The notes beneath the pieces were generated by a model. It worked only from the letters and a program-made list of their open reading frames with translations, searched no databases and was not told the DNA's origin. The position numbers were made by a program, and so were the translations under genes. A DNA stretch of 52,974 nt from Halodesulfovibrio spirochaetisodalis (GTDB lineage Bacteria; Desulfobacterota; Desulfovibrionia; Desulfovibrionales; Desulfovibrionaceae): assembly GCF_001672295.1 (NCBI RefSeq), contig NZ_JXMS01000027.1:1-52974 (forward strand), in the 5' to 3' direction. Positions 8,289 through 23,712 of this stretch are shown piece after piece; within the stretch, counting starts at the first letter, position 1; the number at the start of each line of letters is the position of its first letter.

Positions 8289-8939
8289 TTATACGCGATC
8301 AAGAACAGAAAGGATATCTGCCGGCTCCATACGGATTGTATAGTCCGTATCAATAAAGTCATACAGAATGGTTCCGTCTTTATCGACAATGTAGACTGCA
8401 GGAACAGGAAGCTCCCACTTGTCATTTCCGTTCGCTTTTTCAAGATCGAGCCCGAAGCCTTTATAGACCTCACGCAACTTTTCATCAAAGCTGAATACCA
8501 GTCCGAATTGACGGGCAATTTTGTTATCAGGATCTGTCAGCACCTCAAAAGGAATCTGCTGTTTTTCTTCATCTGACAACGAATTATCTGGAAGCTCTGG
8601 AGAGATGGCAATAAGCACTGCATCTCTGGATTCAATATCTTGCTGCACCTCGCGTAATGCCTTCAACTGAAGGTTACAATACGGTCACCATCCACCTCTG
8701 TAAAAGCAAATCACGACGCGATGATTCTTGCGTAACGCCACAAAATCTACCGAACTACCAGTTACGTTCTGTAATACAAAATCAGGAGCACGATCACCTG
8801 TATGCTTTGCACCATCTGTAATACCGGACTCTTTAAGCATTGCAGCGGAGTTTCGCATGACGTCCTGTGCAGATTGTGGTGCCATGCGGGCAAATTCTTC
8901 TCTGCGCGCTGCAAGTTGGTCGGCTAATCGTTCAGACAT
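8289..8939 (-). CDS. Selenocysteine-containing peroxiredoxin-like protein (UGA read as Sec)
   Basis: One 216-aa reading frame interrupted by a single in-frame TGA (8685-8687). The N-terminal part ends RGGW and the frame resumes with PYCNLQLKAL, so the AhpC/TSA active site reads GGW-U-P-Y-C, Sec85 standing where homologues carry the peroxidatic Cys. Upstream features are TGDRAPDFVL and VVICFYRGGW; downstream are FEVLTDPDNKIARQFGL and VPAVYIVDKDG, a complete thioredoxin-fold peroxiredoxin. A SECIS-like hairpin begins 11 nt after the UGA. Start ATG 8939 follows GGAGAG. It reduces peroxides with thiol donors, probably in the cytoplasm since no signal peptide is seen. It follows the HAD gene by 27 nt. 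Conventional gene calling would split or pseudogenise it. Confidence 0.85.
8660..8687 (-). promoter_or_regulatory. Bacterial SECIS-like element after the UGA
   Basis: After UGA (8687-8685) comes an 11-nt spacer, then stem CCUUC (8673-8669), loop AGUU and GAAGG (8664-8660). The short stem with a GU-containing apical loop about 11 nt past the UGA matches the general design of bacterial SECIS elements bound by SelB. The lower part of the hairpin was not modelled. Confidence 0.65.
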
Positions 8940-8966: not shown

Positions 8967-9830
8967 TTATGTCGGAGTAACTACATTCCGATATCGCAAA
9001 ACATCATAGAGTTCCGTCAAGGTAGCAACAGTCAATGTCGGCTCCACACCCCATGGATCATATATAGAAGCTGAGGAGCGTTTAATCCATACCGCCTGTA
9101 GCCCAGCTACCTTTGCACCGATGACATCAAACGGATTAGAAGAGACCAGCCAGACGCGTGTACGTTCTTCGTATGAAGCAGAAGAATTCTGCCTAGCCAC
9201 TGTGTTCTCCTGTTCTTCAAGCCCCGCTTCCACATAATGGAGACATCCTTGCGGTGAACATTGAAACACACCCACAGACTTCGCCTCTTCAGAACCGACC
9301 GATGCCACCTTACGCGCTCTTCTATCCCTGCCTTCCTGATAAGAGGCGATACGCTCAAGCAGATACGCATATGCAATACGTGACGGCTTAAATACCTTCA
9401 CGGCATCTACACTTATGACATCCTGAAAATATGGCCTGATATTGGTAGCAGTTAAGACTGTTTCAATCTCGCTGACTGTTCCGTTGCTAAAGGCAAAACA
9501 CGTAGCATCAGTCTGAGATAGTTTTTTTAATGCATCTTCCGCATCATCGAAGGCAGGAAAAGACAGACTGCGTAAAAAGAGTGCTTCCTTTTCTTGCTCA
9601 GAAAAAACCACACCAAATTCTTCACATGTATACTCAAAAGCATACCGTGCGCACTGAGAAAATGGCTGATACCAACGCATCAACCCCATTCTATAGGCAT
9701 ACTCAAGCTGCTTGTTACGCCACTGCTTAACAAATACAACAGCACGTTCACCAAGCTTCGTTTCAAGAGCTGCTGGTATACTCGTCGTATCAACCAACGT
9801 TCCATATACATCAAAAACAAGAGTATGCAT
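8967..9830 (-). CDS. HAD-superfamily hydrolase, haloacid dehalogenase type II, with insertion
   Basis: 287 aa. Start ATG 9830 follows AGGAG (9836-9840); the longer frame upstream overlaps an RNA-like region and is not used. Motif I is FDVYGTLVD (nucleophile Asp7), motif II FSNGT (Ser115), motif III KVFKPS, motif IV SSNPFD, as in L-2-haloacid dehalogenases, which hydrolyse 2-haloacids to hydroxyacids. Compared with the usual 220-230 aa, it carries about 60 extra polar, charged residues (about 161-225) between motif III and motif IV. No signal peptide. Probably cotranscribed with the downstream selenoperoxiredoxin. Substrate unproven; other small phosphatase or dehalogenase roles are possible. 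Confidence 0.85.
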   Translation of the reverse strand: MHTLVFDVYGTLVDTTSIPAALETKLGERAVVFVKQWRNKQLEYAYRMGLMRWYQPFSQCARYAFEYTCEEFGVVFSEQEKEALFLRSLSFPAFDDAEDALKKLSQTDATCFAFSNGTVSEIETVLTATNIRPYFQDVISVDAVKVFKPSRIAYAYLLERIASYQEGRDRRARKVASVGSEEAKSVGVFQCSPQGCLHYVEAGLEEQENTVARQNSSASYEERTRVWLVSSNPFDVIGAKVAGLQAVWIKRSSASIYDPWGVEPTLTVATLTELYDVLRYRNVVTPT

Positions 9831-9980
9831 GTCCGCTCCTGCCTGTATGAATGTTCTTTCCGATACTGCACAATACCACAGGAGCAGCGGGTCAGCGATA
9901 TTTTTTTCGTATCCAACAAGTCGACAAGCTGAATGTGCCAAGGTGGGGAGCAAGAAAAGCAATCGGGCTAAAAACGAATG

Positions 9981-10004
9981 AGACCGGTGATAATTCACCG
10001 GTCT
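9981..10004 (-). terminator. Terminator of RNA copy 1
   Basis: Perfect 10-bp stem AGACCGGTGA/TCACCGGTCT with a four-base loop; on the minus strand it is followed by CATTCG and a run of five T. Confidence 0.6.
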
Positions 10005-10100
10005 CCCCCATTGGCTCACTCTACGTTGCGAGAAGAGTTAGCTTTCAGCCCCTTGCATGGGCATGATTGGTATCCATACAGGCCTGCTGAACCTGTACGA
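9981..10100 (-). ncRNA. Structured RNA, copy 1 of a two-member family
   Basis: The 9831-10513 gap has no gene, but read on the minus strand it contains CAGGTTCAGCAG (10095-10084), the box ATGGATACCAAT (10077-10066), GGGGCTG (10052-10046), a stem-loop GGCU...AGCC with inner ACUCU/AGAGU (10013-10050), and a terminator hairpin (9981-10004). The same elements occur in the same order at 23131-23263 with compensatory changes in the inner stem. It lies about 150 nt upstream of the HAD gene start, so it is either an independent small RNA or a terminator-type leader regulating that operon. The 5' end is uncertain. No match to a known riboswitch class was recognised. Confidence 0.55.
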
Positions 10101-10437
10101 ACGTCATTCGTGTCTGCCAAAAAGAAATACTCCGAGATTCGCTACTGCTGGAAACGAATACCGGCCCCGCAACGCGAGGATATTCTTTGTGACAAACAAA
10201 TTTGTTTAAAAAAACAAAGAAGAACTAAAATGAAACCTTTGATTTATTCAAAAATGTCATTTCTGCTGTGATTTCTGTGTACCCTTAAATTTACAAAAAA
10301 GTCAATACGCTTAGCGTAAAACTGCTCCATCCTACAGTGACAAGCAGAAACAACACGTACACCAAGCAGTTCAACATATTGATAATAAATACAAAACCGA
10401 AAAAGACACATGTGTTTTACTTTTTTGTAATCAAAAA

Positions 10438-10463
10438 CAAAAAAACCCGCCAAATGGCGGGTT
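10438..10463 (-). terminator. Terminator of the carbonic anhydrase gene
   Basis: Stem AACCCGCC/GGCGGGTT with loop AAAT (10444-10463), followed on the minus strand by a run of Ts. Confidence 0.85.
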
Positions 10464-10513
10464 TCGTTATCGGCATAGCAATGCAGTGCCTTTAAGTGCA
10501 GCATATCAAACTG

Positions 10514-21938: not shown

Positions 21939-23078
21939 CTACACTTCTGAAGCCAGCATTTGCCTGTTCATCACCCTACTTAACCAATGCAACTCACCTG
22001 TTGTAAGCGGCGCAAGGGGAGAGGTTACAGCAACGGCAGTAAAACTCTTTCCGGATCGTTGGACTATTTCAATCCGCCCTTTCCCTGCGCGAGGCACTGC
22101 TATTCGAACAGCGTCTACATCCCGCAATTCCAGCAACACTGAAGAGTATTCCTTACCAAAAATTGTTGCACCAAAACGTACACTCTCATTATCCCAGACA
22201 ACAAATCCCTTCCCTGCCAATGCTCTGACAAGCCGCCAGAAAACCATATATGCAAAAAAGCCGCACACAACGAGCAAAGTTCCTCCTGCCCACCAGCTGC
22301 CACCTTCGTTAGATGCATTCCAGAATCCTGTACCGCCGCCGTAGAGTAACCCAGCAGTGGCTAATGCCATTAACGTTATGTAGAGCCCACCTGGAGACAA
22401 CGACCATGTAAAGCCTTGTCTTCCATTAACGGCGTATGGTCTGAGAACAGAATCTGTTGGCAGCTTGTTGTCGAACGCTGAAGGAACGAGTGTGTATTGC
22501 TTACGTTCTGGCCGAGAAAAACCGACACCTGCTTCATCTTCAATCGCAAAGCCGGTCAGCTCAGCTATATCCAAAGCCGTTGCCGCCAAGTCTGGGCCAA
22601 GTACAGACCTGTCCAAAGTCTCATAGCCAGAGTTTCGCAGCATTACATCTAAATGGAAGGGGTACCGCCCTTTGCTTCCCTCTCTCGGAGAAAACTCAGC
22701 AGACACGAGATTCCCCTGAGCATTCCGCCTTGTCAGCCTGAGTGTGGTCACCATACCGAATGGTATGGCGTAGACATCTGTCTTACGCCTTCCAAGAAAA
22801 TAGATACAGCGATCAGGAACACTTATTTCAATGGTACGTTGCTGTCTTCGCAAGATCATACCTACAGCCATAAAAATAATGCAGAGGTACAGCACTGCAA
22901 AACGCACCAAGGTTACGCCATCCATCAACAATCCAATAAATCCAAGACAAAGTGCACAACCAACAAGCGCTCCAACAGCAGTCTGCTGTTCTGCAGAAGG
23001 AACCAGCCTCAACGTGGATGAAGATTTTTTCTCTACAGTAGTTAGACTCATACTCTCTAGTAACCTGTTGTAATGCAT
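21939..23078 (-). CDS. Hypothetical four-helix membrane protein
   Basis: 379 aa from the longest start (ATG 23078). ATG 23051 (MSLTTVEKK) is an alternative with AGAGAG upstream. Two hydrophobic hairpins (about 35-75 and 240-290) frame a soluble domain with RTIEISVPDRCIYFLGRRKTDVYAIPFG, and a similar arrangement follows the second hairpin (KGFVVWDNESVRFG...). The two halves look like a repeat of membrane hairpin plus PH-like beta domain. No family recognised. Its start lies about 50 nt after the terminator of RNA copy 2. Confidence 0.75.
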   Translation of the reverse strand: MHYNRLLESMSLTTVEKKSSSTLRLVPSAEQQTAVGALVGCALCLGFIGLLMDGVTLVRFAVLYLCIIFMAVGMILRRQQRTIEISVPDRCIYFLGRRKTDVYAIPFGMVTTLRLTRRNAQGNLVSAEFSPREGSKGRYPFHLDVMLRNSGYETLDRSVLGPDLAATALDIAELTGFAIEDEAGVGFSRPERKQYTLVPSAFDNKLPTDSVLRPYAVNGRQGFTWSLSPGGLYITLMALATAGLLYGGGTGFWNASNEGGSWWAGGTLLVVCGFFAYMVFWRLVRALAGKGFVVWDNESVRFGATIFGKEYSSVLLELRDVDAVRIAVPRAGKGRIEIVQRSGKSFTAVAVTSPLAPLTTGELHWLSRVMNRQMLASEV

Positions 23079-23130
23079 ACTTCAATTACAATATCATAAT
23101 CATCCTGTTACATACTGCACAAAACAGCAA

Positions 23131-23158
23131 GGACGGCTCTGTTTACACAGAGCCGTCC
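23131..23158 (-). terminator. Terminator of RNA copy 2
   Basis: Perfect 12-bp stem GGACGGCTCTGT/ACAGAGCCGTCC with loop TTAC; on the minus strand followed by TTGCTGTTTTG. Confidence 0.75.
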
Positions 23159-23263
23159 AGTGTATGTGGTCATACCGCACACGTTGCCCTCGACTACGCC
23201 GAATCAAATTCCGGCGTGCTGCAGCCCCCCGGTTAATTGGTATCCATCGTCTGTTGACACCTG
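23131..23263 (-). ncRNA. Structured RNA, copy 2 of a two-member family
   Basis: Minus-strand order: CAGGTGTCAACAG (23263-23251), ATGGATACCAAT (23247-23236), GGGGCTG (23228-23222), stem GGCU...AGUC with inner CGCCG/CGGCG (23226-23192), then a 12-bp terminator hairpin (23131-23158). These match RNA copy 1 in order and spacing; the inner stem has changed on both sides while keeping pairing. It is the main content of the 23079-23712 gap; the remainder (23264-23712) is AT-rich without a gene. Independent small RNA or leader of the 23078 gene. Family not recognised. Confidence 0.6.
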
Positions 23264-23712
23264 AGCATGGAGAGTAGGAGGCTCCTTTCCCCTCAAATGA
23301 TTTTCACTTCATACATGCAATGCTACTCTATATATTTATCCCTGATTGCAGAAATCTCACTCTGTATTGCATGCTTCGAAAATTAGATTTTATCTATGGG
23401 CATTCTTTTTTACTTTCATTGCAACTCGCTATCAATTTTTGAACTTCATCCATACTCCACTGCAAAACAAAAAAAAGATAGTTTGTTTTTCTTATTATCG
23501 CCTTAATAACACAGGAAATAATCTGACTATATTTTTTCATGCAGTCAGAATAACAAAAGAAAAACAACTACAACCTAATAATAGTGACTATACAGCATGT
23601 AACAACACACGGTTGAATCCAAATCATCAGATTCCACAAAAAAACGTTCAATCAACTCACTGCAATAATACAGTGTGCCAATTGAACGCATAAGATTTGC
23701 CTGGATATTACG

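Follow-up and report, generated by a model that had tools for sequence, protein, structure and literature searches.

On the minus strand of the window (the whole stretch of 52,974 nucleotides of Halodesulfovibrio spirochaetisodalis analysed here), a structured RNA lies at about 10112-9970 and is probably the product of a lineage-specific, stand-alone small RNA gene, most likely acting in trans without Hfq. Several lines of evidence speak for such a gene: a syntenic position in 6 of the 10 genomes of the genus, a core that is conserved at 92% against 27% for third codon positions of the neighbouring gene, a predicted fold shared by five of six orthologues, and covariation. Furthermore, the RNA has its own terminator-like hairpin, the next gene is convergent in 5/6, and coding frames on either strand are unequal. 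Other observations weigh against it, namely the lack of a promoter-like site, one orthologue (G002) without the consensus helices P1 and P2, the lack of covariation in helices P3-P5, an unremarkable number of further pair types, and the lack of a shared target for the P4 loop. The locus provides a candidate small RNA with well-defined limits in a genus of sulfate reducers where no Hfq gene was found, and its frozen core together with a variable but paired P2 makes it a clean subject for work on the function of Hfq-free structured small RNAs.

Boundaries and predicted fold of the RNA

The original prediction had placed a structured RNA at 9981-10100. Such an RNA is indeed found there; its conserved part reaches further, and the ends of this part were placed at about 10112 and about 9970 because the segment ACGAAT (10106-10111) pairs with ATTCGT in the tail (9974-9979). 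The parts of this slightly longer RNA are as follows.

9970-10112, minus strand: structured small RNA, conserved part, with six orthologues and the same fold in five of them
10106-10111, minus strand: 5' strand of P1, ACGAAT, pairing with ATTCGT; ACGAAT is retained in five of six orthologues
10076-10098, minus strand: P2, the 5' hairpin, of variable sequence, with both-side changes in 7 of 12 pairs
10045-10066, minus strand: P3, UCA-GCCC paired with GGGC-UGA around the loop AUGCAAG, predicted in all six
10014-10043, minus strand: P4, GCU-ACUCU paired with AGAGU-AGC around the loop UCUCGCAACGU
10006-10013, minus strand: joining segment CAAUGGGG from P4 to P5, invariant in the alignment
9980-10005, minus strand: P5, a GC-rich terminator-like hairpin identified by the terminator scan
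9970-9979, minus strand: tail ATTCGTTTTT, comprising the 3' strand of P1 and a U run

Both this locus and that of a second RNA in the window, originally described at 23131-23263, fold better than 200 of 200 dinucleotide shuffles, with z values of -4.5 and -3.7, respectively. Minimum-energy folding of single sequences gave five of the six orthologues a common closed shape of five helices, P1 to P5, in which P1 (ACGAAU/AUUCGU) is predicted to close the RNA and to adjoin P5 directly, with the terminator tail supplying its 3' strand. The mean pair probability in these five is 0.60-0.98 for P1 and 0.45-0.83 for P4, the latter being weaker in G008 and G005 by single-sequence folding. The exception is G002, where P1 and the aligned P2 pairs have a probability of 0.00 and a different hairpin occupies the place of P2. 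In all six, prediction leaves the P3 and P4 loops open (0.70-0.97 unpaired), and the joint AAUGGGG is unpaired at 0.70-0.77 in five orthologues and at 0.24 in G002. An alternative pairing, CCCAU/AUGGG, was rejected at a probability of 0.003 or less. Two elements named from the letters at the outset, the GCU-ACUCU/AGAGU-AGC stem and a terminator at the end of the RNA, are both present, the latter as the terminator-like hairpin found by the scan.

Conservation, covariation and phylogenetic range

Orthologues of the RNA were found in one part of the genus. A DNA search detected it in 6 of 59 related genomes at E 1e-41 or better, all of them in the genus and including its own genome; 21 further genomes matched at E 1 or below, the best at 0.04, giving 27 of 59 in total. 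The second RNA was detected in the same six genomes (E 5.7e-19 or better). One covariance model was built for each RNA from six sequences, and both were run on 247 genomes of the family, the model of the first RNA additionally on 348 genomes of the order, the two sets overlapping. The six orthologues were recovered at E 2.7e-40 or better, 6 of 348 genomes matched order-wide at E 0.001, and no credible orthologue outside the six was found among the family and order genomes. A covariance search for further copies had been proposed at the outset as a means of refutation, and it instead located orthologues in five other genomes.

The orthologues are syntenic, following a carbonic anhydrase gene in 6 of the 10 genus genomes (the Halodesulfovibrio clade). 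Both RNAs were absent, in DNA and covariance searches, from the other four: G003 (86% complete), G004, G006 and G007. In these genomes the neighbouring proteins overall are 30-47% identical, and they appear to form a more distant group, since the identity of their carbonic anhydrase is just 44-47%.

Weaker matches were also considered. Beyond the six, the model of the second RNA matched 20 of the 247 family genomes with E values no higher than 0.5 (lowest 8.6e-7) and that of the first RNA 9 (lowest 0.001). Nine loci for the former model and seven for the latter, one of them in G002, were inspected by eye, and the others were judged by the range of the model that was matched. The inspected loci were taken as gene-adjacent terminator hairpins or coding stretches and were rejected as distant homologues. 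The strongest weak match to the first model, on contig C58 of G002 (E 3.2e-5), has AUGCAAGGUGCUGAA and a terminator, lacks P4 and is probably due to chance, and the weak matches in G007 (E 0.04 for the first RNA and 0.0035 for the second) lack a similar core. An exact-pattern scan of the genome_contigs collection, which may omit records near the window, returned one Halodesulfovibrio record; its match in a Chitinophagaceae MAG showed, by eye, nothing similar outside the pattern. There was no match in the viral contigs searched.

Conservation is unevenly distributed along the RNA. The core comprises 87 columns, 92% of which are identical in all six orthologues; in the same six genomes, the carbonic anhydrase gene is invariant at 68% of first, 81% of second and 27% of third codon positions. 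The 5' part upstream of the core varies freely, with a pairwise identity of 30-67%, yet the pairing of P2 is retained. Covariation is located in P2 (7/12 pairs) and in P1, where 1 of the 8 pairs examined in the orthologue alignment has changed in both partners. Over all 46 pairs of the structure, with kinship among the sequences ignored throughout, the covariation score was 0.199 compared with 0.128 for shuffled alignments, and the percentage paired was 93.8 compared with 90.7, values that 0 of 500 shuffles reached in either case; there were 8 doubly changed pairs compared with a shuffled mean of 3.9 (reached by 1 of 500). Further pair types numbered 19 compared with 17.6, which 154 of 500 shuffles reached and which is therefore unremarkable.

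The remaining helices present a different picture, with zero of the 26 pairs of P3, P4 and P5 changed on both sides among the six orthologues. All seven P3 pairs are constant and so lend it no covariation support, 6 of the 8 P4 pairs are constant with the other 2 each lost in one sequence, and variation in P5 is confined to loop letters and the loop-closing pair. Since they are nearly invariant, the case for these three helices comes from folding. This bears on the compensatory change that the original prediction saw in its inner stem: the comparison was between two RNAs without demonstrated homology, and 0 of 8 pairs of that helix are doubly changed among orthologues. Its broader claim, that a structured RNA is under selection here, is well backed by the conservation of the orthologues, the fold and the covariation in P2.

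These patterns are also relevant to whether the locus might encode a small protein or act as a DNA-level element rather than as an RNA. All six genomes have an open antisense frame, MRPV...HGH, and five of them a sense frame, MPMQGAES; however, the former stops at anything from 34 to 97 codons, the latter has no stop in G005, a ribosome site is not obvious by eye, and the changes in P2 preserve pairing. Such a reading is very improbable.

Gene neighbourhood and transcription

The gene upstream of the RNA, in all six genomes and on the same strand, is that for carbonic anhydrase; the protein in the window matches PF00484. Three features, all on the minus strand, lie between this gene and the RNA.

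10442-10465, minus strand: terminator-like hairpin of the carbonic anhydrase gene, between gene and RNA, from the terminator scan
10243-10305, minus strand: conserved upstream block (TTGACT... and ...AAATGACATTTTTGAATAAA), kept in six genomes amid variable spacer
10193-10206, minus strand: palindrome AACAAATTTGTTTG, a candidate regulator site, its ACAAATTTGT core retained in five of six genomes and the spacer otherwise variable

A similar hairpin with a T run follows the carbonic anhydrase gene in all six genomes, as identified by the scan in the window and by eye in the other five, and between the carbonic anhydrase match and that of the RNA lie 401-559 bp of mostly variable spacer sequence. 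Within this spacer, the block at 10243-10305, which sits about 130-195 bp upstream of P1, may be a promoter or regulatory region. Together with the palindrome and a weaker conserved block at 10137-10151, it may hold promoter and regulator sites. A sigma-70 consensus scan gave 0 promoter-like sites, with 1.4 expected.

On the downstream side, the RNA is followed in five of the six genomes by a gene of about 410 codons in convergent orientation, whose identity among the five is 89-94%. In G008, a mechanically called same-strand frame of 88 codons overlaps the end of this convergent gene. Frames for a HAD protein (start near 9830) and a peroxiredoxin follow on the same strand in the RNA's own genome only. 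The two peroxiredoxin frames (8289-8939, minus strand) are in phase with each other on either side of a TGA at 8685-8687, which is the arrangement expected for a selenoprotein.

This arrangement allows the RNA to be compared with two kinds of dependent transcript. The first, a cis-acting leader or riboswitch for the downstream HAD and peroxiredoxin genes, draws on the order of genes in the RNA's own genome, and was raised originally as a leader of a HAD-selenoperoxiredoxin operon. It is extremely improbable and, for the conserved RNA, this role is excluded: the next long gene is convergent in five of six orthologues, no same-strand downstream gene is conserved, and the carbonic anhydrase gene has its own terminator-like hairpin. 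The second, an RNA derived by read-through and processing from the 3' end of the carbonic anhydrase mRNA, would fit the shared strand and the gene order, as the RNA comes after that gene in all six genomes. It is distinctly unlikely in view of the terminator-like hairpin right after the gene and the length and variability of the spacer. Because of the upstream hairpin and spacer, and of the convergent downstream gene in five of six genomes, the RNA is not a leader, and it is not obviously a 3' untranslated region either. As judged from its sequence, the locus has its own intrinsic terminator and is separated from the neighbouring transcription units. Transcription would start from its own promoter within the spacer of about 400-560 bp after the carbonic anhydrase gene, and the transcript would end at P5 and the U tail.

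Possible mode of action and relation to a second RNA

Comparison with known RNAs supports the original view that no known riboswitch class could be recognised. In Rfam (release 15), no family reached its gathering score at either RNA of the window, nor did any in a scan of ten orthologous loci, and the sole match in the window at that score was the 5S rRNA that lies at the end of the contig. With the limit relaxed to E 10, matches around both RNAs were sub-threshold only. For example, the P26 family matched over the terminator hairpin with 15.3 bits against a cut-off of 36, and the CsrB model matched the opposite strand with 16.8 bits against 71 needed. CsrB-type sponge RNAs carry multiple GGA motifs in hairpin loops; the invariant core has one GGA only, so a sponge for CsrA was rejected as unlikely.

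Bacterial trans-acting small RNAs encoded in intergenic regions with intrinsic terminators are a familiar kind. The RNA resembles them in its own intergenic locus, its terminator-like hairpin and U tail, its synteny and its narrow phylogenetic range, but differs in its closed five-helix predicted fold, in its tail paired to the 5' end, and in belonging to a genus without an Hfq match. Hfq (PF17209) was detected in 0 of 10 genus genomes (G000-G009) at E 0.001, while 5 of 14 control genomes were positive; CsrA was found in all ten. On these grounds an Hfq-type mechanism is unlikely, and any action in trans would be independent of Hfq. None of the literature matches listed, with subscription papers outside the scope, concerned small RNAs in Halodesulfovibrio. 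In the part consulted of a study predicting non-coding RNAs in Oleidesulfovibrio alaskensis G20, a member of a related genus (PMC11124144), one small RNA of an Hfq-binding family (STnc490) is predicted, and the term Halodesulfovibrio is absent from that part.

As a stand-alone small RNA, the transcript would fold into a closed five-helix domain in which the tail returns to the 5' end to form P1, beside P5, and would act in trans, most likely free of Hfq. Its contact sites may be the invariant parts that are predicted to be open, namely the P4 loop UCUCGCAACGU, the P3 loop AUGCAAG and the joint CAAUGGGG, and these contacts would serve base pairing with mRNAs or the binding of a protein. With regard to mRNAs, the six genomes contain 36 sites complementary to the P4 loop, 6 of which are the RNA itself, compared with 72 for a reversed control. 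Of the 30 other sites, 24 were taken by longest frame for the target comparison and 23 were validly placed; no sense target was shared among these 23 loci, and one orthologous pair of sites is antisense to the longest frame.

A mode of action based mainly on binding of a protein or small molecule, with the RNA serving as a scaffold, a sponge or a sensor in trans, and not on pairing with mRNA, is somewhat unlikely. Closed multi-helix folds and frozen cores resemble those of ligand- or protein-binding RNAs, and here the core is near-frozen including its stems; the genus lacks an Hfq match and no conserved site complementary to the P4 loop was found. The single GGA in the invariant core speaks against one form of it, the CsrA sponge. 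Tentatively, and with slightly more doubt, the RNA could represent a new class of small RNA, in which a compact closed five-helix domain uses its terminator tail as part of the closing stem, is kept near letter-for-letter in one lineage of marine sulfate reducers with no detectable Hfq, and acts in trans as a protein- or ligand-binding regulator.

The RNA had originally been described as copy 1 of a two-copy family with 23131-23263. The elements listed for this family do occur in the order given at both places on the minus strand, including GGGGCTG and ATGGATACCAAT with 12/12 identity, and the two RNAs share one set of six genomes, in five of which 13-14 kb separates them; in G001 the distance is about 30 kb. 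They have in common the piece AUACCA...CARGGGGCUGAA, with similar spacing. In three of the six genomes, 7-8 of 1000 shuffles attained the pairwise alignment score, but in the other three 118-326 of 1000 did so; the profile-profile score was attained by 16 of 600. In a covariance cross-search with filters off, the RNA sites gave terminator-hairpin pieces or background only (best E 0.18 and 0.69).

The shared motifs also have limits as a signature. The identity of ATGGATACCAAT is real, but each RNA has the complete 12-mer in only one of its six orthologues, and two of the four occurrences in the RNAs' own genome lie elsewhere, inside open frames that are 472 and 454 codons long. The exact CARGGGGCTGAA is kept in 6/6 orthologues of the first RNA and 4/6 of the second; it has 35 sites in the ten genus genomes, of which 10 are the two RNAs, 17 lie in the four genomes without the RNAs, and the remaining 8, in the six RNA-bearing genomes, fall within open frames of 242-677 codons. 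GGGGCUG forms the 3' strand of differently laid-out helices: in the first RNA, P3 has GGGGCUGA as its 3' strand, while in the second, GGGGGCU can pair with a far-upstream AGCCUCC (in the folds of G008 and G002, and by eye in other genomes). A two-copy family is therefore not upheld, the models failing to cross-match beyond the terminator hairpins, the folds differing and the 12-mer not being conserved. It is an unlikely reading, although the two RNAs may have a remote common origin.

The second RNA (23113-23300, minus strand) resembles the first in its presence in the same six genomes, its short common motif and its terminal GC hairpin; it differs in its other helices and in the lack of a model cross-match beyond the terminator. 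It is conserved in the six genomes, with both-side changes in 6 of 53 consensus pairs. In its 3' part a local hairpin competes with pairing of CCACAUACA and the tail, and the winner varies by genome (0.00-0.96 vs 0.00-1.00). In all six genomes the match to its model is followed, after 52-61 nt, by that of a gene on the same strand for a 370-aa product, which has no Pfam family, and this distance makes a role as a cis-acting leader plausible. Between the second RNA and this gene lies an inverted repeat, TTGTAAT...ATTACAA (23068-23091, minus strand), a possible regulator site that, by eye, is imperfectly retained in the other five genomes.
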